57,968 nt of DNA, taken from Telmatospirillum sp. (GTDB lineage Bacteria; Pseudomonadota; Alphaproteobacteria; Rhodospirillales; Magnetospirillaceae). Shown piece after piece: positions 44,029 through 54,875 of this stretch. The first letter of the stretch is position 1. Every line of letters begins with the position of its first letter. The translations under genes and the position numbers were made by a program. The stretch spans positions 1 to 57,968 of the forward strand of contig JARLJB010000120.1 in NCBI GenBank assembly GCA_031291415.1, given 5' to 3'. The notes beneath the pieces were generated by a model. The model saw only the letters and a program-made list of their open reading frames with translations, had not been told where the DNA came from and did no database searches.

Positions 44029-44565
44029 ATGACCATGACCACCGGCGATCGCGCCATCCTGATCTTGATGGAAAACGGCTTCGAGGATATGGAGCTGATG
44101 TATCCCTTGTACCGCCTGCGGGAAGCCGGCTATCGCACCATCGCCGCCGCCCCGAAAGCCGGCCAGACCTATCAGGGCAAGCATGGCTATCCCTGGGTCA
44201 GCGACGCGGCCATCGATGACATCGAAGAAAAAGACTTTGCCGGCATCATCCTGCCCGGCGGCTGGTGCCCGGACAAGCTGCGGCGCGCGGCCAAGGTCAA
44301 AGACCTGATCGCCGCCTTCGACAGATCGCAAAAGCTGGTCGCCGCCATCTGTCATGGCGGTTGGATGGCGATTTCCGCCGGCGTTTATCGAGGCGTCCGC
44401 GTCACCGGCAGCCTTGGCATCAAAGATGACCTGGAAAATGCCGGGGCGATCTTTGAAAGCGCGCCGGTTGTCATCGACCGCCATTTCGTCAGCAGCCGCA
44501 ATCCCGACGACCTGCCCGCCTTCATGCAAGGTGTCCTTGGTGTCCTGTCCAACACCAGGACGTAG
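44029..44565 (+). CDS. DJ-1/PfpI family protein
   Basis: A 178-residue class I glutamine-amidotransferase-like protein. Glu15 (MENGFEDME), the GIILPGGWCPD loop and the nucleophile elbow AICHGGW (Cys108-His109) match the DJ-1/PfpI family. Members act as glyoxalase III/deglycases or peptidases. Its position 16 bases after dhaM suggests a role with dihydroxyacetone or methylglyoxal toxicity, which is inference. Two ATGs, 44029 and 44035, are both usable. Confidence 0.82.
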   Translation: MTMTTGDRAILILMENGFEDMELMYPLYRLREAGYRTIAAAPKAGQTYQGKHGYPWVSDAAIDDIEEKDFAGIILPGGWCPDKLRRAAKVKDLIAAFDRSQKLVAAICHGGWMAISAGVYRGVRVTGSLGIKDDLENAGAIFESAPVVIDRHFVSSRNPDDLPAFMQGVLGVLSNTRT

Positions 44566-44708
44566 GCCTCGACAAGACGCCGGATCGCCTCTTTGCCTCT
44601 GGGTGCCTATCCTTTTTGCACCGAATGACGGTATCTGCTCAATCTCCAGGCACGTCCGTGCCGCTCGGGCTCTATGGCACCTTTCATATAAAATGAAACG
44701 CGCCACTA

Positions 44709-44818
44709 GTGGCACCGGCGTCTCTGCCGGTGTTTTCGGGGGAGGCGGCAAGCAAACAAATCTCGACAGCATTTCTTGCCGCTTTGGCCGGCAACACCGG
44801 CAGAGACGCCGGTGCCAC
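44709..44818. repeat. 110-bp palindromic element with 26-bp perfect arms
   Basis: Arms beginning GTGGCACCGGCG (44709-44734) and ending GCCGGTGCCAC (44793-44818) are exact inverted repeats of 26 bp. Inside lies a second 8-bp dyad, GCGGCAAG/CTTGCCGC. The shape suits a REP/MITE-like element with no coding capacity. Confidence 0.7.
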
Positions 44819-44827
44819 CTGAACTTA

Positions 44828-44861
44828 GAGCGGCGTGCGTCAAATCTGACGCGCCCCGCTC
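44828..44861. repeat. Inverted repeat with 15-bp arms
   Basis: GAGCGGCGTGCGTCA and TGACGCGCCCCGCTC pair at 13 of 15 positions around a 4-base loop. It follows the 110-bp element by nine bases and shares the GAGCG terminus with the next repeat. Confidence 0.55.
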
Positions 44862-44929
44862 CAGCGGCCATTGAGGCCACGGCCAAGCGCGCGGAGGCGC
44901 GCGCCCGGCGAGGGACATAAATTAAACGT

Positions 44930-44960
44930 GAGCGTGATGCGGATCTAACGCATCACGCTC
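44930..44960. repeat. Inverted repeat with 12-bp perfect arms
   Basis: GAGCGTGATGCG and CGCATCACGCTC flank GATCTAA. Palindromes of this GAGCG...CGCTC type are common extragenic repeats in alphaproteobacteria. It lies 67 bases before the sigma-54-type promoter. Confidence 0.6.
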
Positions 44961-45026
44961 TAAGTCAGCGCCGATGCGGGGTCGAGGACTGAAGGAGTTG
45001 CAGCTCTATTGCGCGGCTCCAATCCG

Positions 45027-45044
45027 TTGGCACGCTCCCTGCAT
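45027..45044 (+). promoter_or_regulatory. Sigma-54 (RpoN) type promoter of the guanidine operon
   Basis: TTGGCACGCTCCCTGCAT has the invariant GG and GC ten bases apart and matches the TTGGCACG-N4-TTGC consensus with one mismatch in the -12 element. Transcription should begin near 45055, right at the riboswitch. Sigma-54 control fits a nitrogen-scavenging operon activated by NtrC. No clear NtrC palindrome was found upstream. Confidence 0.75.
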
Positions 45045-45059
45045 AGACTTTAAGCATAA

Positions 45060-45175
45060 TGCGTCTAGGGTTCCGGCTCCGGTGACGGCGTGTCTGGTCC
45101 GAGAGATGCACTCCCTTCCCCTGCTCGTCACGGGATGGAGCCACGGCGGGACAAAAGCCCGGGAGAGCTGTGCCG
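45060..45175 (+). ncRNA. Guanidine-I riboswitch (ykkC class)
   Basis: The conserved blocks of the ykkC subtype 1 RNA occur in order: CTAGGGTTCCG (45065-45075), GGTCCGAGAG (45096-45105), and GGGACAAAAGCCCGGGAGA (45148-45166) preceded by ACGGC. These are the ligand-pocket sequences of the guanidine-sensing aptamer. Downstream, a CGGTCT/AGACCG stem (45195-45224) followed by CTGTTTT may serve as the expression platform. The aptamer ends about 110 bases before the transporter gene. Confidence 0.93.
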
Positions 45176-45284
45176 CGAGAGGTTCTCGAACGGACGGTCT
45201 CTGCCCGAACACTGGTCAAGACCGCTGTTTTCAAAACTCCCCGCGGGTCATGGCATCAACGTGAACCAACCAAGGGAGTTTCCC

Positions 45285-46364
45285 ATGCGTCGTTCCTTCA
45301 TGCGTTTCCTCGGATTGGCTCTTGGTGCGGCCGGTGTGCTGACCACGGCCTGTTCTCCAGCCCTTTCCGCCGAAAAAAAAGACTTCAAGATCGCCTGGTC
45401 GATTTATGCCGGCTGGATGCCTTGGGGCTATGCCGCCGATTCCGGCCTGATGAAAAAATGGGCTGATAAATACGGCATCAAGGTCGATATCGTTCAGATC
45501 AACGACTATGTCGAATCGATCAACCAATACACCGCCGGAAAATTCGACGGCTGCGTCATGACCAACATGGACGCTCTCACCATACCGGCGGCCGGCGGCG
45601 TCGACAGCACCTCGCTCATTGTCGGTGATTTCTCCAACGGCAATGACGGCATCGTCTTGAAGAAAGGCAAAACCATCGCCGATCTCAAAGGACGAAAAGT
45701 CAATCTGGTCGAATTCAGCGTCTCGCATTACCTGCTGGCCCGCGCCCTCGATTCCGTCAAGTTGAAGGAAAAGGCCGTCACCACGGTCAATACCTCGGAT
45801 GCCGATATCGTTTCCGTTTTTTCCTCGACCGCCGACGTCAACGCGGTGGTGACCTGGAACCCGCAGCTTTCCGAGGTGAAAAAGGTCAAGGACGCGACGG
45901 AAGTCTTTGATTCTTCCAAGATCCCCGGCGAAATCATCGATCTGATGGTGGTCAACAGCAACACGCTGAAGGACAACCCGGCTCTCGGCAAGGCTCTGGT
46001 CGGCGTCTGGTACGACATCATGAAACTGATGACGTCCAACACGCCGGAGGGCAATGCGGTTGTCGAAGCGATGGCCAAGGCCTCGGGAACCGATCTCGAC
46101 GGATACAAATCGCAACTGGCGACCACCAAGATGTTCTATACGCCGGCTGACGCAGTCGCCTTCGCCGCCGGAGCACAACTGCCCAAGACGATGGATCTGG
46201 TGCGGACCTTCTCGTTCGAACATGGCCTGCTCGGCGAAGGGGCAAAGACCAAAGATGCGGTGGGCATCGCCTTCCCCGACGGCTCGTCCTTGGGTGACGC
46301 GAAAAACATCAAGCTTCGCTTCAATGCCGATTTCATGAAATCAGCGGCAGACGGGAAACTTTGA
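45285..46364 (+). CDS. Guanidine-operon ABC transporter, substrate-binding protein
   Basis: A 359-residue binding protein of the nitrate/sulfonate/taurine-like (SsuA/TauA, NMT1) superfamily, with an N-terminal signal peptide (FLGLALGAAGVLTTACSPALSA). A Cys in that stretch is not in a good lipobox. The mature part opens KIAWSIYAGWMPWGY and has NDYVESINQYTAGKFDGCVMTNMDAL, as in the urea-carboxylase-linked binding proteins. The riboswitch upstream makes guanidine the probable cargo. The ATG at 45285 follows AAGGGAG. Confidence 0.85.
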   Translation: MRRSFMRFLGLALGAAGVLTTACSPALSAEKKDFKIAWSIYAGWMPWGYAADSGLMKKWADKYGIKVDIVQINDYVESINQYTAGKFDGCVMTNMDALTIPAAGGVDSTSLIVGDFSNGNDGIVLKKGKTIADLKGRKVNLVEFSVSHYLLARALDSVKLKEKAVTTVNTSDADIVSVFSSTADVNAVVTWNPQLSEVKKVKDATEVFDSSKIPGEIIDLMVVNSNTLKDNPALGKALVGVWYDIMKLMTSNTPEGNAVVEAMAKASGTDLDGYKSQLATTKMFYTPADAVAFAAGAQLPKTMDLVRTFSFEHGLLGEGAKTKDAVGIAFPDGSSLGDAKNIKLRFNADFMKSAADGKL

Positions 46365-46366
46365 GC

Positions 46367-47188
46367 ATGGGCCGTCGGATTATCAACCGACGGCTGGGTT
46401 ATGGAGGCGCGATCTTTTGGGGCGCGCTTCCGTTCCTGGCCTTCGTGATGCTGTATGCGACCTTTTCCGCCTTGCGTTTGGCCGACAATCCCGGTGACAA
46501 GCTGTTGCCGGCCTTTTCGACCATCGGCAACACCATTTTGCGGTTGGCAACCGTTCCGGACGCCAGGACCGGCGGGATCCTGTTGTGGGTCGACACCGAA
46601 GCCAGCTTGATGCGCCTGGGCATCGGCCTGGCTGGCGCTTCCGTCCTCGGTCTGATCGGCGGCATCGCGATCGGCCTCATTCCTTATCTGCGGGCCGGCC
46701 TGTCGCCGGTGGTGGCCGTCATCTCGATGGTCCCGCCGATGGCCATTCTGCCCATTCTGTTCATCGTCTTCGGTCTCGATGAACTGTCGAAGGTCATGCT
46801 GATCATCATCGGCGTGGCGCCTTTTCTGATCCGCGACCTCGCCATGAAGGTGAGCGACATGCCGATCGAATTGCTGATCAAGGCGCAAACCTTGGGGGCA
46901 TCGACCTGGCAGATCGTCCTGCGCGTCGTGCTGCCGCAGGTTGCCCCTAAACTCGTCGACGCGATCCGGTTGTCGCTCGGCGCCGCCTGGCTGTTTCTCA
47001 TTTCCGCCGAAGCCATCGCCGCAACCGACGGCCTGGGCTACCGCATCTTCCTGGTGCGGCGCTATCTCGCCATGGACGTCATCCTGCCCTACGTCGCCTG
47101 GATCACCCTGTTGGCGTTCGCCATGGATTGGGTGCTCCGCCGCTTCAACCGCCTTTGTTTCCCCTGGCTGCAACGGGGGCTGTCATGA
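46367..47188 (+). CDS. Guanidine-operon ABC transporter, permease
   Basis: A 273-residue BPD-type permease with about six TM helices and the EAA-like loop LIKAQTLGASTWQIVLRVVLPQVAPKLVDAIR. It has an extended first periplasmic segment (residues about 36-80). It starts two bases after the binding-protein stop and overlaps the ATPase gene by four bases. An import role follows from the partner binding protein. Confidence 0.88.
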   Translation: MGRRIINRRLGYGGAIFWGALPFLAFVMLYATFSALRLADNPGDKLLPAFSTIGNTILRLATVPDARTGGILLWVDTEASLMRLGIGLAGASVLGLIGGIAIGLIPYLRAGLSPVVAVISMVPPMAILPILFIVFGLDELSKVMLIIIGVAPFLIRDLAMKVSDMPIELLIKAQTLGASTWQIVLRVVLPQVAPKLVDAIRLSLGAAWLFLISAEAIAATDGLGYRIFLVRRYLAMDVILPYVAWITLLAFAMDWVLRRFNRLCFPWLQRGLS

Positions 47189-47952
47189 GTACGCTATCGG
47201 TTCGCAATGTCTGGATGGAGTACGCTGATCAGGTCGTCCTCGAACGGGTCAATCTTGAGATTCCATCCGGTGAGTTCTGTGCCTTGGTTGGACCGTCGGG
47301 TTGCGGCAAAACGACGTTTCTCCGGCTTCTGCTCTCCATGGAGCGGCCGACAAGGGGCACCATCCTGCTCGACGACGCGCCGCTTTCCGCCGAGCCGGGC
47401 CCGGGACGCGGCGTGGTGTTCCAAAAGTACTCGGCCTTTCCACATCTGACGGTCAGCGAAAACGTCATTCTCGGATTGGAATTCGCCGGTTCCCCGGTCC
47501 TGGGCAAGTTGTTCGGGGCTCGCCGGCGTGCAGCCCTCGACCAGGCGGAAACGATCCTTGCCTCGGTCGGCTTGAGCGGAGCCCGGGACAAATATCCGGC
47601 GGAGCTGTCGGGCGGCATGCAGCAGCGCCTGGCCATCGCCCAGACATTGGTAAGAAAACCCAAGGTCCTTTTGATGGACGAGCCGTTCGGCGCGCTCGAT
47701 GTCGGAACCAAAGCGCAAATGTACGAGCTGATCCTCGCGCTCTGGCGGGAAGTGCGGATGACCGTGTTCATGGTGACGCACGATCTGAAGGAGGGCTTTT
47801 CGCTGGCCACGCGGGTCCTCGCCTTCGACAAGGTGCGTCTCGATCCCGATGCTCCCGGCGCTTACGGCGCCACCGTTACCTTTAACCTGCCCTTGGACGA
47901 GAAGGCCGAACGGGCCGACATCGTCGCAAAACTTCCTTTCGCGCCAGTCTGA
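47185..47952 (+). CDS. Guanidine-operon ABC transporter, ATP-binding protein
   Basis: A 255-residue import ATPase with Walker A GPSGCGKTT, Q-loop VFQKYSAFPHLT, signature LSGGMQQRLAIA, Walker B VLLMDEPFGALD and switch His in VTHDLKEG. ATG overlaps the permease stop (ATGA). It belongs to the TauB/SsuB group by sequence style. Confidence 0.92.
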   Translation: MSTLSVRNVWMEYADQVVLERVNLEIPSGEFCALVGPSGCGKTTFLRLLLSMERPTRGTILLDDAPLSAEPGPGRGVVFQKYSAFPHLTVSENVILGLEFAGSPVLGKLFGARRRAALDQAETILASVGLSGARDKYPAELSGGMQQRLAIAQTLVRKPKVLLMDEPFGALDVGTKAQMYELILALWREVRMTVFMVTHDLKEGFSLATRVLAFDKVRLDPDAPGAYGATVTFNLPLDEKAERADIVAKLPFAPV

Positions 47953-48054
47953 CGGCGCGTCGGCGGGGACGACCCCCCCGGCTTTGGTGTTTCCCCGGGA
48001 CGACCCGGACAACCGCCTGGCCTTATGACGCCAGCGCTGATGGAGACCCGAGAG

Positions 48055-48774
48055 ATGACAGATCCTCTCTATCAAGACACCCTTCCCGGCGGCAAGCATT
48101 GGTCGTTCGTGTTGAAAGCCGGCACGCTTCTCCGGCTGACCGACCTCGAGGGCGGCGCCAATGTCGGCATGCTGTTCTACAACCCACTCAATCTTCTCGA
48201 GCGTTACAACGCACCCGACACCTTGAAATGTCAGCACACCTTCAAGCTGACCCGCGGCAATTGCCTTTATTCCGACATGGGCCGGATCTTCTGCTCGATC
48301 GTCGAAGACGATATCGGCTGGCACGACACCGTTTGCGGCAACACCACCAAGGCAATGGTGGCCGGGCGCTGGGGAACGAAGTCCTACCAGGCCGCCCGCA
48401 ACGACTGGCAGCAGAACGGCCACGACAGCTTCCTGGTCGAAGGCGGCAAGTACGGTCTGACGGGTCGCGATCTTTGTGCCAACGTTAATTGGTTCTCCAA
48501 GGTCGTCGCCCAAGAGGACGGCGCCATGGCGTTCGATCCCGACAATTCGAAGGCCGGCGCCAGCCTCGGACTCCGTTTCGAGATGGACACACTTGTGCTG
48601 CTGCACACCTGCCCGCATCCGCTCAACCCGGCCACCGACTATCCGCGCCGACCGGTACTTTACCAGTTATTCCGGTCGCCGGCCGTCACAGAGGACGACT
48701 TTTGCCGCAACGCCCGACCGGAAAACGGCCGAGGATTCGCCAACACCCATCTTTATCAACTCTTCGGCGCCTGA
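48055..48774 (+). CDS. Carboxyguanidine deiminase subunit (urea carboxylase-associated protein 1 type)
   Basis: A 239-residue protein of the urea-carboxylase-associated family: [36 protein letters not shown] near the start, then [18 protein letters not shown] and CPHPLNP. Related pairs are now known to deiminate carboxyguanidine to allophanate. The ATG at 48055 has GGAG nine bases upstream; two earlier ATGs in frame do not. It stands 102 bases after the ATPase gene and 13 before its partner. Confidence 0.86.
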
Positions 48775-48787
48775 GGAGGACCGGATC

Positions 48788-49432
48788 ATGATCAAGGCAA
48801 GCACGCTTTCCGCCGATCGCGCCCTTTCCCGTGAGCTGGTTCCGGCCGGCAGTTACTGGATGCACGAAGTGAAGGCCGGACAGACCTTCCGCATCGTCGA
48901 CGTCGAGGGCAACCAGGCGGCGGACACCCTGTTCTTCAACGCCGACGATCCGCACGAACGCTATTCGGCCGAGAATACCATCCGCGCCCAGGCCAACGTC
49001 TATCTCGGCGTCGGCTCGCGGTTACGCTCGACCGAGGACCGTGTGATGCTGTCGATCACCGCCGATCTGGTCGGACGCCATGACACCCTGGGCGGAGCCT
49101 GCGCCACCGAATCCAATACGGTGCGCTATGCCCTTGAAAAGAAGACCATGCACGCCTGCCGGGATTCCTATCTTCTGGCCTTGGCGGAAAACCAGCAATA
49201 CGGTCTCGACAAGCGCGACCTCGGCCATAACATCAATTTCTTCATGAATGTGCCAATCACCGCCGAAGGTGGCCTGCGCTTCGCCGACGGACTGTCGGCT
49301 CCGGGAAAATATGTTGAAATGGTCGCGGAAATGAACGTGGTCGTGCTCATTTCCAACTGCCCGCAACTCAACAATCCCTGCAACGCCTACAACCCCACTC
49401 CCATCGAAGTCCTGATTTGGGAGGCTTGCTGA
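48788..49432 (+). CDS. Carboxyguanidine deiminase subunit (urea carboxylase-associated protein 2 type)
   Basis: A 214-residue paralogue of the preceding protein, with [54 protein letters not shown] and the C-terminal [18 protein letters not shown]. Cys and His residues in these blocks suit a metal or catalytic site. The start follows GAGGAGG. Together the two subunits should turn carboxyguanidine into allophanate and ammonia. Its stop overlaps the carboxylase start. Confidence 0.87.
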
Positions 49433-52400
49433 TGTTCGGCAAAGTTCTTGTCGCCAACCGCGGCGCCATCGCCTGCCGGATCATCCGTACGCTCGACCGC
49501 ATGGGAATCGCCAGCGTTGCCGTCTATTCCGAGGCCGACCGGCACTCCCTCCATGTCTCGATGGCCGGAGAAGCAATCTGCGTCGGCCCGGCGCCTGCCG
49601 CCCAAAGCTATCTCAAGACCGACGCCATTCTCGAAGCCGCCCGTCGGGTCGGGGCCGACGCCATCCATCCGGGTTACGGCTTTTTGTCCGAGAATGCCGA
49701 TTTTGCCGAGGCTTGCGGTCGTGCCGGTCTCGTCTTCATCGGCCCGCAACCGGAGAACATTCGCGCTTTCGGCCTCAAGCATCGGGCGAGAGCCCTGGCC
49801 GCGGCAGCCGGCGTGCCCTTGGCGCCTGGCTCTGGTCTGCTTGCCGACGTCGGCGAGGCACTTCGCGAAGCGGACCGTATCGGTTATCCGGTCATGCTGA
49901 AAAGCACGGCCGGCGGTGGTGGCATCGGGCTTCAGCTCTGCCGGTCGGCCGCCGAAATGGCCCCGCTGTTCGAACGGGTGAAGCGTCTGGCAGGCAACAA
50001 TTTCAAGGATAACGGCGTCTTCCTTGAAAAATACGTCGAGCGTGGCCGTCACATCGAAGTGCAGATCTTCGGCGATGGCCGGGGCGCGGTGATCGCGCTC
50101 GGCGAACGCGATTGTTCATCGCAACGGCGCAACCAGAAAGTCGTTGAGGAGACACCGGCGCCGGGACTGAGCGCCGGCCAACGTCACGACCTTTGCCAGA
50201 CGGCCGTCCGCCTGGGACAGGCGGTGGCCTATGCCAACGCCGGCACCGTCGAGTTCATACTCGACGCCGACCGTGGCGAGTTCTACTTCCTCGAAGTCAA
50301 TACCAGGCTCCAGGTGGAGCATGGCATCACCGAGGAAGTCACCGGCGTCGATCTGGTGGAATGGATGATCCGCCAGGCGGCAGGGGCCCCCCTGCCCTTG
50401 GCCGACCATGCCGAAAGGGCCGCCGGGGCCTCGATCGAGGTCCGTCTTTACGCCGAGGATCCCGGACGCGCCTTCCGCCCCTCCTCGGGTCTGTTGACCG
50501 CCGTCCGCTGGCCAGACGGAGTCCGGGTCGAAACCTGGGTGGAAAGCGGCAGCGAGATATCGCCGTTTTACGACCCCATGTTGGCCAAGCTGATCGTCAC
50601 CGGCCGCGACCGCCCGGACGCCGTCGAAAAAATGCGCCAAGCCCTGGCCGCCACCGAGGTAGCCGGCATCGAAAGCAATCTCCGCTATCTGCGGGCCCTG
50701 GTCGACAGCCCCGCTTTTGTCGGTGGCACGATGACCACCCGCACACTTGAGAGCTTTCCCTACCACCCCCGCTCGATCGAGGTGTTGACGGCGGGAACCC
50801 AGACGACGCTCCAGGATTACCCTGGGCGGATCGGCTATTGGGACGTCGGCGTTCCACCATCGGGACCGATGGACAGTCTGTCCTTTCGCCTTGCCAATTG
50901 CGCACTTGGCAACGACCCGGGAACCGTCGCTCTCGAAATCACCATTTCCGGTCCCAGTCTGCAGTTCAACACCGACGCCACTATCTGCCTGAGCGGCGCG
51001 GCCATGGCCGCCACATTGGACGGCCGGCCGATCCCCTTCTGGCGGCCGGTGTCCGTCAGGGCCGGGCAAACCCTGGCAATGGGCACCATCTCGGAGACCG
51101 GCTGCCGTTCCTACCTTGCGGTCCAGGGCGGCTTCGACGTCCCCGATTACCTTGGCAGCAAGGCGACGTTCACTTTGGGAAAGTTCGGCGGCCATGGCGG
51201 ACGCACGTTGAAGATCGGCGATGTGCTCCACCTCGGCCGGCCATTCGACGGACAGCAAGCGTCTCCGGTGCCGGCCGACATCATTCCGGTGCTCGATCAT
51301 CACTGGACCATCGGCGTGCTCTATGGCCCGCACGGTGCCCCCGACTTCTTCACCGACGATGACATGGCCGAATTCTTCGCCGCCGATTGGGAGGTCCATT
51401 ACAATTCCAACCGGACCGGCGTCCGGCTGATCGGCCCGCGCCCGAAATGGGCTCGCAGCGACGGCGGTGAGGCCGGGCTGCACCCGTCGAATATCCATGA
51501 CAACGCCTATGCGGTGGGCGCCGTCGATTTCACCGGCGATATGCCGGTGATCCTCGGTCCGGACGGTCCGTCGCTTGGCGGCTTCGTTTGTCCGGTGACC
51601 ATCGTTCAGGCCGAATTGTGGAAGATCGGCCAGCTGCGCCCGGGCGACAGGGTCCGTTTCCGCCGGCTATCGCCAGAGGCCGCTGTCGGACAAGCCGTAC
51701 GGCAGCAAGCGGAAATCGCCGCATTCGAACGGATCGATCCGGCACTATCGGCCACGGTGTCCGGTGCCGGCATCGATGACGCCGTGGTTGGCCGCCTGCT
51801 GACCGAAGCCGGACGCCCCGAGGTAGTCTATCGTCGGGCCGGCGATTGCTATCTGCTGGTCGAGTACGGTCCGCCGGTCTTGGACCTTGAACTGCGGTTT
51901 CGCGTGCACGCCTTGATGACCTGGCTGAAAGCCAATGGACCGGCTGGCATTATCGAACTGACCCCGGGCATCCGCTCGCTGCAACTCCATTACGACAACC
52001 GGTTGCTACCACTGGACGACCTGTTGGCGATCCTGCGGCGAGCCGAACAGAGCATTCCGGCCGGCGACGATCTCGAGGTGCCGACCCGAATCGTCTATCT
52101 GCCGCTGTCCTGGGACGACGCGGCGACCCGCAAGGCGATCGACAAATATATGCAGTCGGTTCGCGCCGACGCCCCATGGTGCCCCAGTAACATAGAATTC
52201 ATCAGACGCATCAATGGGTTGAAGGACATCTCCGAGGTCAAGAAAATCGTCTTCGAGGCCAGTTATCTCGTCCTCGGTCTGGGCGACGTTTATCTCGGCG
52301 CCCCGGTTGCCACCCCCATCGATCCACGGCATCGGTTGGTCACCACCAAATACAATCCGGCCCGCACCTGGACGCCGGAAAACGCCGTCGGTATCGGCGG

Positions 52401-53055
52401 CGCCTATCTTTGCGTCTATGGCATGGAGGGACCGGGCGGCTATCAGTTCGTCGGTCGCACCTGCCAGATGTGGAACGCCCACAAATCGACCGCCGAATTC
52501 GCCCCCGGAACCCCCTGGCTGTTGCGCTTCTTCGACCAGCTTCGCTTCATCGAGGTGTCGGCCGAAGAGCTGCTGGCCTTCCGCGAGGATTTTCCACGCG
52601 GCAAAGCTCATCTCCGGATCGAGGAGACAACAACCTTCCGGTTATCGGATTACCGGCGTTTCCTGGCGGAAAACGATACCGGCATCAAGGCCTTCAAGGC
52701 TCATCAGCAACAAGCCTTTGAAGAGGAGCGGGCTCGCTGGGAAGCATCCGGCCAGATCGGTTACGGCGCCGAACTGCCGGAAGTCACCGAGGACGACGGT
52801 AACGAGACCCTGCCTCCCGGCGGCATCGCCGTGCCGTCGCCGGTTCCCGGCAGCATCTGGAAGATCGCCGTCGAGGCCGGCCGCCGGGTCAAGACCGGCG
52901 ACGTCCTGATGATCGTCGAAAGCATGAAAACGGAAATTTCCGTCACCAGCCCAACCGATGGTCTGGTGGTGGAACTGCGGTGCAGCGAAGGACATTCGGT
53001 GACACTGGGACAGACCGTGATGGTCATGGTCGCCGATGAAAGGGAGGCCGCGTAA
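49432..53055 (+). CDS. Biotin-dependent guanidine (urea) carboxylase
   Basis: A 1207-residue multidomain enzyme. Biotin carboxylase is at about 1-450 (KVLVANRGAIACRIIRTL, HPGYGFLSENADFAE, EVNTRLQVEHGITEEVTG). Two carboxyltransferase-type domains of the KipA/KipI fold follow (about 465-775 and 785-1000; GLHPSNIHDNAYAVGAVDF). A biotinyl domain ends the protein, with ESMKTE and biotinyl Lys1166. Homologues carry the label urea carboxylase, but those under guanidine riboswitches prefer guanidine, giving carboxyguanidine. The start overlaps the upstream stop (TGATG) and the stop overlaps the next start (TAATG). Confidence 0.92.
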   Translation: MFGKVLVANRGAIACRIIRTLDRMGIASVAVYSEADRHSLHVSMAGEAICVGPAPAAQSYLKTDAILEAARRVGADAIHPGYGFLSENADFAEACGRAGLVFIGPQPENIRAFGLKHRARALAAAAGVPLAPGSGLLADVGEALREADRIGYPVMLKSTAGGGGIGLQLCRSAAEMAPLFERVKRLAGNNFKDNGVFLEKYVERGRHIEVQIFGDGRGAVIALGERDCSSQRRNQKVVEETPAPGLSAGQRHDLCQTAVRLGQAVAYANAGTVEFILDADRGEFYFLEVNTRLQVEHGITEEVTGVDLVEWMIRQAAGAPLPLADHAERAAGASIEVRLYAEDPGRAFRPSSGLLTAVRWPDGVRVETWVESGSEISPFYDPMLAKLIVTGRDRPDAVEKMRQALAATEVAGIESNLRYLRALVDSPAFVGGTMTTRTLESFPYHPRSIEVLTAGTQTTLQDYPGRIGYWDVGVPPSGPMDSLSFRLANCALGNDPGTVALEITISGPSLQFNTDATICLSGAAMAATLDGRPIPFWRPVSVRAGQTLAMGTISETGCRSYLAVQGGFDVPDYLGSKATFTLGKFGGHGGRTLKIGDVLHLGRPFDGQQASPVPADIIPVLDHHWTIGVLYGPHGAPDFFTDDDMAEFFAADWEVHYNSNRTGVRLIGPRPKWARSDGGEAGLHPSNIHDNAYAVGAVDFTGDMPVILGPDGPSLGGFVCPVTIVQAELWKIGQLRPGDRVRFRRLSPEAAVGQAVRQQAEIAAFERIDPALSATVSGAGIDDAVVGRLLTEAGRPEVVYRRAGDCYLLVEYGPPVLDLELRFRVHALMTWLKANGPAGIIELTPGIRSLQLHYDNRLLPLDDLLAILRRAEQSIPAGDDLEVPTRIVYLPLSWDDAATRKAIDKYMQSVRADAPWCPSNIEFIRRINGLKDISEVKKIVFEASYLVLGLGDVYLGAPVATPIDPRHRLVTTKYNPARTWTPENAVGIGGAYLCVYGMEGPGGYQFVGRTCQMWNAHKSTAEFAPGTPWLLRFFDQLRFIEVSAEELLAFREDFPRGKAHLRIEETTTFRLSDYRRFLAENDTGIKAFKAHQQQAFEEERARWEASGQIGYGAELPEVTEDDGNETLPPGGIAVPSPVPGSIWKIAVEAGRRVKTGDVLMIVESMKTEISVTSPTDGLVVELRCSEGHSVTLGQTVMVMVADEREAA

Positions 53056-54875
53056 TGATCGCCACATTGGACATCGAGGCATTGTCCTCTGGCTATGCCG
53101 ATGGATCGCTTACCCCCGAGATGGTCCTCGAGACGATTTACCAGCGGATCGCCCGGATGGGCGAACGGCCGGTATGGATCGCTCTGGTTCCCCATGATCA
53201 GGCGCTGGCCAAGTTGCGGGACACCCCGAAAGGTCCGCTTTGGGGCATTCCCTTCGCCGTGAAAGACAATATCGACGTCGCCGGCATGCCGACGACGGCC
53301 GGTTGTCCCGACTTCGCCTATACGCCCAGCCGGTCGGCGCATGTGGTCGAACGGCTGCAAGCCGCCGGCGCGATCCTGATCGGCAAGACCAACCTCGATC
53401 AGTTCGCCACCGGACTGGTCGGAACCCGCAGTCCCTACGGCATCTGCTCGTCGGTCTTCAGCTCAGAGCATATCTCCGGCGGATCGAGCGCCGGATCGGC
53501 TGTGGCGGTCGGCGCCGGCCTGGTGTCCTTCAGCCTGGGAACGGACACGGCGGGATCAGGGCGGGTTCCCGCCGCCTTCAACAACATCGTCGGCCTCAAG
53601 CCCACCAAAGGACTGATCAGCACCAGCGGCGTGGTCCCGGCCTGCCGTACCCAGGACTGCGTATCGGTGTTCGCCGGCACCGTCGCCGATGCCGTCACCG
53701 TGCTGCGATCGGCCGGGGGCTACGATCCCGACGATCCCTATTCCCGGCGGGAAAAGTCTTGCAGCGACGATATCCCGGCCGGTTTTCGTTTCGGCGTTCC
53801 GTCCGGCACCCTGGAGTTCTTCGGCGACGGTGCCACCGCCAGTCTGTTCGACCAGACGGTGGCACGGTTGGAATCTTTGGGCGGAACCAGGGTCGAGATC
53901 GATTTTCAACCCTTCGACGAAGCGGCGCGATTGCTCTACGCCGGTCCCTGGGTGGCCGAACGTCTGGCCGCCATCCGGGATTTTGCCCGAACCCATGCGC
54001 AGTCGATTCACGAGGTGGTTCGCGGCATCATTCTGGGTGGCGATCGCTTCACCGCCATCGACGGCTTCGAAGGCGCCTATCGGCTGGCCGCGCTGATCCG
54101 CCGGGCGGAAACCGAATGGGCGAAGATGGAGCTGATGATCCTGCCCACCACCGGGACCACCTACCGCATCGACGAGGTGCTGGCCGACCCGCTGAGACTC
54201 AACAGCAACCTCGGACGCTACACCAACTTCGTCAATCTGATGGACCTGTCGGCGATCGCGGTACCAGCCGGCTTCCGCCCCAACGGCCTGCCCTTCGGCG
54301 TCACGCTGATCGGACGGGCCTTCGCCGACGAACCTCTCGCCCGGGTCGCCGACCGCTTGCACCGAACCTTGCCTGATGCCGTCATCGGAGCCACGGGCCG
54401 GTCATTGGCCATGACGCCGGGTCTGGAGCCGCGTGCATTCATATCTTCCCGACGTCCGATCGCCCCGTCATGCCCCGATAAAACCATCGTGGCGGTGGTC
54501 GGCGCCCATTTGGCCGGCCAGCCGTTGCACAGCCAGTTGGAGGAACGTCATGCCCACTTCCTTGGCGTCCAACAAACCAGCCCCGGATACAGTCTTTATG
54601 CGCTGCCCGGAGCCACACCGGCCAAACCTGGATTGGTTTTTGACGGCAAAGGGGCCGGTGCTATCGAAGTCGAACTCTACGAAATGGACATGGCCGCGTT
54701 TGGCAGCTTCGTCGCGCTGATCCCGCCGCCCCTGGGAATCGGCACGGTGTGCCTGGCCAGCAACCGCCAGGTCAAGGGATTCCTGTGCGAATCCCATGCG
54801 GTCGCCGGGGCAGACGATATCACCGCCTATGGCGGCTGGCGGGCCTGGCTGGGACGCAAAACCAATGCTCGTTGA
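53055..54875 (+). CDS. atzF: Allophanate hydrolase
   Basis: A 606-residue amidase-signature enzyme. The catalytic triad can be placed as Lys70 (PFAVKDN), cis-Ser144 (SGGSSAGSA) and nucleophile Ser168 (TDTAGSGRVPA). A C-terminal domain (about 450-606) typical of allophanate hydrolases follows. It splits allophanate to two ammonia and two carbon dioxide, the last step of guanidine use. Coupled to the carboxylase by the TAATG overlap. It closes the operon. Confidence 0.93.
   Translation: MIATLDIEALSSGYADGSLTPEMVLETIYQRIARMGERPVWIALVPHDQALAKLRDTPKGPLWGIPFAVKDNIDVAGMPTTAGCPDFAYTPSRSAHVVERLQAAGAILIGKTNLDQFATGLVGTRSPYGICSSVFSSEHISGGSSAGSAVAVGAGLVSFSLGTDTAGSGRVPAAFNNIVGLKPTKGLISTSGVVPACRTQDCVSVFAGTVADAVTVLRSAGGYDPDDPYSRREKSCSDDIPAGFRFGVPSGTLEFFGDGATASLFDQTVARLESLGGTRVEIDFQPFDEAARLLYAGPWVAERLAAIRDFARTHAQSIHEVVRGIILGGDRFTAIDGFEGAYRLAALIRRAETEWAKMELMILPTTGTTYRIDEVLADPLRLNSNLGRYTNFVNLMDLSAIAVPAGFRPNGLPFGVTLIGRAFADEPLARVADRLHRTLPDAVIGATGRSLAMTPGLEPRAFISSRRPIAPSCPDKTIVAVVGAHLAGQPLHSQLEERHAHFLGVQQTSPGYSLYALPGATPAKPGLVFDGKGAGAIEVELYEMDMAAFGSFVALIPPPLGIGTVCLASNRQVKGFLCESHAVAGADDITAYGGWRAWLGRKTNAR

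Follow-up and report, generated by a model that had tools for sequence, protein, structure and literature searches.

Predicted joining of a sigma-54 promoter to a guanidine-I riboswitch at a guanidine-assimilation operon of Telmatospirillum sp.

Guanidine assimilation has been described in Vreelandella boliviensis, in which growth on guanidine is reported to raise the proteins of a guanidine carboxylase operon far above their levels on ammonium (PMC12508155). Similar genes have been encountered under the name of urea carboxylase. In an ntrC mutant of Burkholderia cenocepacia H111, nitrogen limitation is reported to leave urea carboxylase with a log2 change of -6.0 and to yield zero reads for an importer protein and a carboxylase-related aminomethyltransferase (PMC5491218); we take the latter to be a DUF1989 protein. 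A computational survey predicted sigma-54 control for 102 COG3665 genes, 59% of them labelled urea carboxylase (PMC12316311). As for guanidine sensing, it has been suggested in a review of tandem riboswitches that guanidine is a signal which cells have no need to combine with another chemical one (PMC9481103).

The locus analysed here lies in a 57,968-nucleotide stretch of Telmatospirillum sp. DNA (contig JARLJB010000120.1), hereafter the window. It carries an apparent operon (45285-54875) for import and breakdown, with a guanidine-I aptamer at its head. A second riboswitch of another class, guanidine-II, is placed between the importer and enzyme genes:

45054-45167, plus strand: guanidine-I (ykkC) riboswitch aptamer, RF00442, from a covariance model
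45285-46364, plus strand: ABC importer substrate-binding protein (TIGR03427, profile score 551.9 bits)
46361-47188, plus strand: ABC importer permease
47128-47952, plus strand: ABC importer ATPase (coordinates of the listed reading frame, start codon provisional)
47961-48008, plus strand: internal guanidine-II (mini-ykkC) riboswitch, RF01068 (46.3 bits)
48025-48774, plus strand: DUF1989 protein UAAP1
48767-49432, plus strand: DUF1989 protein UAAP2 (48767 itself is not a start codon)
49417-53055, plus strand: urea/guanidine carboxylase (TIGR02712, profile score 1858.9 bits)
53055-54875, plus strand: allophanate hydrolase

The original prediction, made from the letters of the window, had proposed the guanidine-I aptamer, and a search with the Rfam covariance model bears this out: the match reaches 86 bits where the cut-off is 63 (E 5.1e-14) and spans the full model, positions 1-107. 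Positions 45054-45167 can thus be placed in the guanidine-I class, and ligand binding and switching are predicted for them. The internal guanidine-II riboswitch was absent from the original prediction. It has counterparts in the order: of the 12 guanidine-I loci above cut-off, 11 are followed on the same strand by a guanidine-II match at a distance of 2.8-3.0 kb. DUF1989 is presumably the same family as COG3665. The proposal that the operon serves guanidine assimilation also holds up, as the importer, two DUF1989 proteins, the carboxylase and the allophanate hydrolase stand together under guanidine riboswitches. Gene set and riboswitches fit a guanidine carboxylase pathway operon, with a putative preference of the carboxylase for guanidine, a preference that goes with Asp in place of Asn in the active site. 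Such genes are assigned to that pathway in the literature (PMC12508155), and later work describes UAAP1 as a carboxyguanidine deiminase/hydrolase subunit. The solved chains closest to the window carboxylase are a yeast protein and a urea amidolyase. Pfam matches were obtained in six of ten neighbouring reading frames tested (carbohydrate kinase, MIP channel, Dak2 protein, DJ-1/PfpI protein, DeoR regulator and FAD-dependent oxidoreductase).

Directly before the aptamer lies a candidate promoter:

45028-45043, plus strand: sigma-54 -24/-12 promoter TGGCACGCTCCCTGCA, TGGCACG-N4-CTGCA, mismatched at 1 of 12 positions and conserved in relatives
45054, plus strand: putative transcription start, 12 nt downstream of the -12 C and coinciding with aptamer position 1

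Sites were scored at 12 positions as GG-N10-GC within a TGGCACG/TTGCW surround, which is the general sigma-54 consensus. The promoter has GG at 45029-45030 and GC at 45041-45042, with CTCC as the spacer between TGGCACG and CTGCA. On both strands of the 57,968 bases it is the best match and the sole site with one mismatch; nine other sites have two (three on the plus strand, six on the minus strand). A strict scan of 44400-45400 found no sigma-70-type site. The near-consensus RpoN promoter of the original prediction is thereby upheld, both as the best match of the window and, as detailed below, by its conservation. The adjacency claimed for promoter and aptamer, about 20 bases, also stands, since the end of the GC lies 22 nt from the CTAGGG core of the aptamer. 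The claimed start at 45055 shifts by one base: when the C of the GC is counted as -12, +1 falls on 45054, which is position 1 of the Rfam model. The evidence supports membership of 45028-45043 in the sigma-54 promoter class, from which rpoN dependence is predicted.

The pairing of promoter and aptamer was surveyed in relatives. A good site was defined as the best match to the sigma-54 consensus upstream of an aptamer with at most two mismatches, and as near when within 60 nt. Since choosing the best site per locus biases column conservation, background counts in windows are the fair test. In the order, the aptamer was found in 13 of 99 genomes, 12 times above cut-off, and every one of these 12 loci (the window included) has a good site starting 20-26 nt before the aptamer. 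Across the class, 29 of 32 further places could be scored and three had no locus; together with the order-level 12, a near good site is present in 35 of 42 loci, compared with 9 of 4588 66-nt background windows from related loci. Four of the 42 (L013, L069, L070, L071) score below the Rfam cut-off, and L070 is unlike an aptamer in appearance. A survey of the phylum, in which 29 of 55 further places were scored and 26 had no locus, added near good sites in four of five same-class loci. It also found good sites in 23 of 24 loci of other classes, three at -55 to -59 and 20 at -63 to -93. Background for this set was 17 of 3194 66-nt windows, and 10 of 348 for longer windows.

A second route led through the substrate-binding protein, whose closest named relative (Magnetospirillum sp., 82% identity over the protein) heads the best 80 of 580 relatives. 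These 80 loci overlap with the genome sets above, so the counts are not summed. Aptamers were found in 78 of them (L145 and L150 gave no match). Alpha, beta and gamma labels were taken from record titles, and one locus, L182, was kept without a label. Good sites precede 45 of 48 alphaproteobacterial aptamers, at -20 to -30. They precede both betaproteobacterial aptamers, at -65 and -71, and 33 of 34 gammaproteobacterial ones, with 10 sites within 60 nt and 23 at -61 to -178 (21 of these 23 at -61 to -97). The promoter is thus mostly fused to the aptamer in the sampled alphaproteobacterial loci and stands 61-97 nt upstream in most beta- and gammaproteobacterial loci. Placement at a nearly fixed distance in orthologous operons is what these positions of site and aptamer indicate. 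The original observation of a sigma-54 promoter placed on a guanidine-I aptamer is confirmed, and is more general than could be seen from one sequence.

Exceptions occur. Among above-cut-off same-class loci, a near good site is missing in L052, L058, L063, L065 and L106; among the alphaproteobacterial aptamers of the binding-protein set, L194 has no site and the best in L151 and L179 has three mismatches. The aptamers of L052, L058 and L063, which are without a good sigma-54 site, all belong to one genus (g95); the gene that comes first behind the aptamer encodes an importer permease in L052 and looks permease-like by eye in the other two. Gene order also varies. In two Azospirillum loci (L140:2668-2788 and L142:2758-2879, both included in the 45 of 48) some 7 kb separate the aptamer from the binding-protein gene downstream, and the order of the genes that follow the aptamer is unlike that of the window. 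In six gammaproteobacterial loci (L158, L160, L164, L181, L206, L215) a few kilobases hold two or even three guanidine-I aptamers, on opposite strands in L158 and L160, and for every one of them a sigma-54-like site of no more than two mismatches lies within 300 nt.

Other riboswitches served as specificity controls. None of 30 TPP riboswitches from same-class genomes has a sigma-54 site, even at up to three mismatches, and none of 29 guanidine-II riboswitches from the family and order has one at up to two mismatches within 300 nt. About a dozen of the 29 are operon-internal, which makes the guanidine-II set a weak control on its own. Control loci at contig ends (L122, L137, L029) had best sites with 5, 5 and 4 mismatches and were negative. 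Outside operons, all five presumed SMR exporters tested that follow guanidine-II riboswitches proved to be SMR proteins, and one other was EamA. L013 and L071, weak guanidine-I matches below cut-off that stand before EamA transporters, are likewise without a good site. With the TPP and guanidine-II controls negative, the promoter appears to go with the assimilation operon rather than with the ligand.

As to the activator, the upstream DNA was examined for NtrC-type sites. The features found there are unstranded:

44604-44620: candidate NtrC site TGCCTATCCTTTTTGCA, TGC-N11-GCA, 424 nt upstream of the -24 box (putative role)
44636-44652: another candidate NtrC site TGCTCAATCTCCAGGCA, spaced 32 bp from the one above and 392 nt upstream of the -24 box (putative role)
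44709-44827: dispersed repeat element A, between candidate enhancer and promoter
44826-44960: dispersed repeat element B, ending in a perfect inverted repeat at 44930-44960 (borders taken from match ends)

By profile search, the genome of the window encodes both RpoN (439 bits) and NtrC (730.9 bits), each above cut-off. One NtrC-profile match 2.3 kb downstream of ntrC is, judged by its position, presumably NtrX. The dyad TGC-N11-GCA has been termed a putative NtrC binding motif (PMC10746234). After removal of near-identical upstream stretches, it occurs upstream of the promoter in 31 of 77 alphaproteobacterial loci, against a mean of 2.2 and a maximum of 5 in shuffled sequences and against 3-13 loci for dyads of other gap lengths; in the other 46, the 140 nt searched hold no such dyad. 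Where present, it is most frequent 60-100 nt upstream of the -24 box. In beta- and gammaproteobacteria, 10 of 30 loci have it (other gaps 1-6, shuffle mean 1.2). A fuller form, TGCACC-N5-GGTGCA matched at no fewer than 10 of 12 positions, is found in 12 of 104 loci, compared with 1.5 by shuffling and 0-4 for other gaps. Across relatives, then, the NtrC part of the original prediction gains support from sites enriched upstream in addition to the two genes.

In the window itself, the dyads at 44604 and 44636 are the only ones not explained by repeats or the promoter, and they are unusually distant compared with those of relatives. At the density of such dyads in the window, the 462-nt intergenic stretch should hold 0.13 of them; two or more would arise by chance with p of about 0.007, a figure uncorrected for the motif having been picked from relatives. 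A further dyad, at 45040, shares bases with the promoter and was discounted as an NtrC site. Searching the same genome for the fuller dyad TGCCNANNNNNTRGGCA gave 15 matches against 10 for a reversed control (palindromic sites counted twice), which is no clear excess and proves nothing. Three of the four PII genes of the genome (L240, L241, L242) have a sigma-54-like site and an upstream TGC-N11-GCA, a count to which no null was attached; the fourth, L243, has neither.

NtrC is probably the activator of the window promoter. A genuine sigma-54 promoter might instead answer to another enhancer-binding protein. In favour of this are twelve further places of the genome, the presumed NtrX among them, whose similarity to the NtrC profile extends well past the receiver part, and the remote position of the NtrC-like sites in the window. 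We regard this as unlikely, given that both forms of the dyad are enriched before the same promoter in relatives, that the ten neighbouring reading frames tested include no enhancer-binding protein, and that the ntrC mutant of B. cenocepacia is reported to lose expression of similar genes (PMC5491218).

Between the two candidate NtrC sites and the promoter stand two adjacent repeat families of about 119 and 135 nt, some 252 nt in total (44709-44960), with 64 matching stretches in the genome when the palindromic element is counted on both strands. The inverted repeat at 44930-44960 was rejected as a specific operator because it recurs at 18 places in the genome with up to three mismatches, this one included. 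The TGC-N11-GCA at 44777 was likewise rejected as an NtrC site; a similar dyad is present in seven of eight other copies of element A and is taken to be the palindrome of the element itself. Among the copies, L246 is without the dyad and that of L251 is more divergent.

The repeats may have displaced the candidate enhancer from the promoter. They also bear on a second alternative, in which most transcription of the operon comes from a different promoter (for instance sigma-70 or read-through) and the -24/-12 site, its enhancer separated from it by the repeats and 392-424 nt away, is minor or inactive. This is less likely still. The strict sigma-70 scan was empty, the core sigma-54 promoter is nearly perfect, and sigma-54 enhancers can act at a distance. 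Finally, mere coincidence in G+C-rich DNA, to which the nine two-mismatch sites elsewhere in the window might lend some colour, is hardly credible beside a near-fixed distance kept in relatives, a background of 9 in 4588 windows and the negative TPP and guanidine-II controls.

With a sigma-54 promoter under NtrC as the preferred reading, the next layer is the leader RNA, in which two hairpins are predicted downstream of the promoter:

45161-45206, plus strand: hairpin using the 3' GGGAGAG of the aptamer, predicted in eight relatives, putative part of the expression platform
45233-45281, plus strand: predicted hairpin in which AAAACTCCC is paired with the ribosome-binding site GGGAGTTT

Both come from an alignment of eight close relatives in which most of the hairpin pairs are invariant and hence weakly tested. 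In folding stability the window RNA does not surpass its shuffles (z -0.27). When the aptamer fold was enforced, exposure of the ribosome-binding site hardly changed (from 0.17 to 0.22) and the site was masked in both modelled states, so the switch did not show up by this approach. By a simple scan, the leader of the window has no intrinsic terminator. Terminators were detected in 5 of 47 alphaproteobacterial leaders (a set with the window but without L140 and L142) and in 1 of 28 beta- or gammaproteobacterial or unassigned leaders. The five are all rhizobial (L188, L201, L205, L212, L214), and the other 42 are without one. The output mode of the guanidine-I riboswitch may thus differ between lineages; in the window it may be a terminator, masking of the ribosome-binding site or Rho.

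Taken together, the control region of this guanidine-assimilation operon is probably two sensors in series, a sigma-54/NtrC promoter and a guanidine-I RNA, which would act as an AND gate. Under nitrogen shortage, sigma-54 RNA polymerase at 45028-45043 would be activated by phosphorylated NtrC from an upstream site. With a start at about 45054, the position predicted from the promoter, the guanidine-I aptamer would be the first structured RNA made. Guanidine-dependent expression is the known behaviour of the guanidine-I class. The leader would permit expression of the importer and the remaining operon when guanidine is bound and would keep it low otherwise, and the internal guanidine-II switch would gate the enzyme genes a second time. 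The outcome would be an operon that responds to nitrogen hunger plus the presence of guanidine. This AND logic is the best reading of the locus, with the start site, the activator and the output mode in this organism being what we infer.

A broader rule is somewhat favoured by the surveys: nearly all guanidine-I assimilation operons of Pseudomonadota would belong to the NtrC/sigma-54 regulon and riboswitch-controlled exporters would not, with the alphaproteobacterial start locked to the first aptamer base. If true, promoter class would separate 'eat it' from 'expel it' for one ligand, and the alphaproteobacterial promoter and riboswitch would form one inherited two-input module. The two-input control would account for the conditions under which bacteria feed on guanidine instead of simply expelling it, and would show a link between guanidine sensing and nitrogen status. 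It also gives a testable rule, sigma-54/NtrC for assimilation and other promoters for export, and a promoter starting on the first aptamer base would be a compact natural AND gate.

Parts of this arrangement are already known. Sigma-54 prediction, NtrC dependence and the presence of guanidine-I and guanidine-II in one operon are each in print (PMC12316311, PMC5491218, PMC12508155). The original prediction did not know the AND logic as described. This needs qualification with respect to sigma-54/NtrC control, which has been published for this operon type as urea carboxylase (PMC12316311, PMC5491218); it stands for the link to the riboswitch, as a sigma-54/NtrC promoter joined to a guanidine riboswitch was not found among the matches listed in the open-licence PubMed Central literature. 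The main text of the V. boliviensis report mentions neither NtrC nor RpoN and contains 'promoter' once (T7) and 'sigma' once (Sigma-Aldrich) (PMC12508155), and the main text of a 2025 guanidine review is also without NtrC and RpoN (PMC12186494). Conversely, B. cenocepacia is a betaproteobacterium, and the main text of the study of its mutant mentions neither riboswitch nor guanidine (PMC5491218). The COG3665 survey is prediction only; its main text is without guanidine or ykkC and has riboswitch in a reference only (PMC12316311).

The operon of V. boliviensis remains the closest match, with the same enzymes and importer, guanidine-I at the head and guanidine-II inside; its guanidine-II riboswitch is reported before gca, whereas that of the window precedes UAAP1 (PMC12508155). 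The promoter evidence points against the suggestion that guanidine need not be integrated with other signals (PMC9481103). In logic, the locus resembles the tandem riboswitch gates of the same review in placing two inputs on one operon, but those gates join two RNA sensors, whereas the window would join a sigma-54 promoter to an RNA (PMC9481103).
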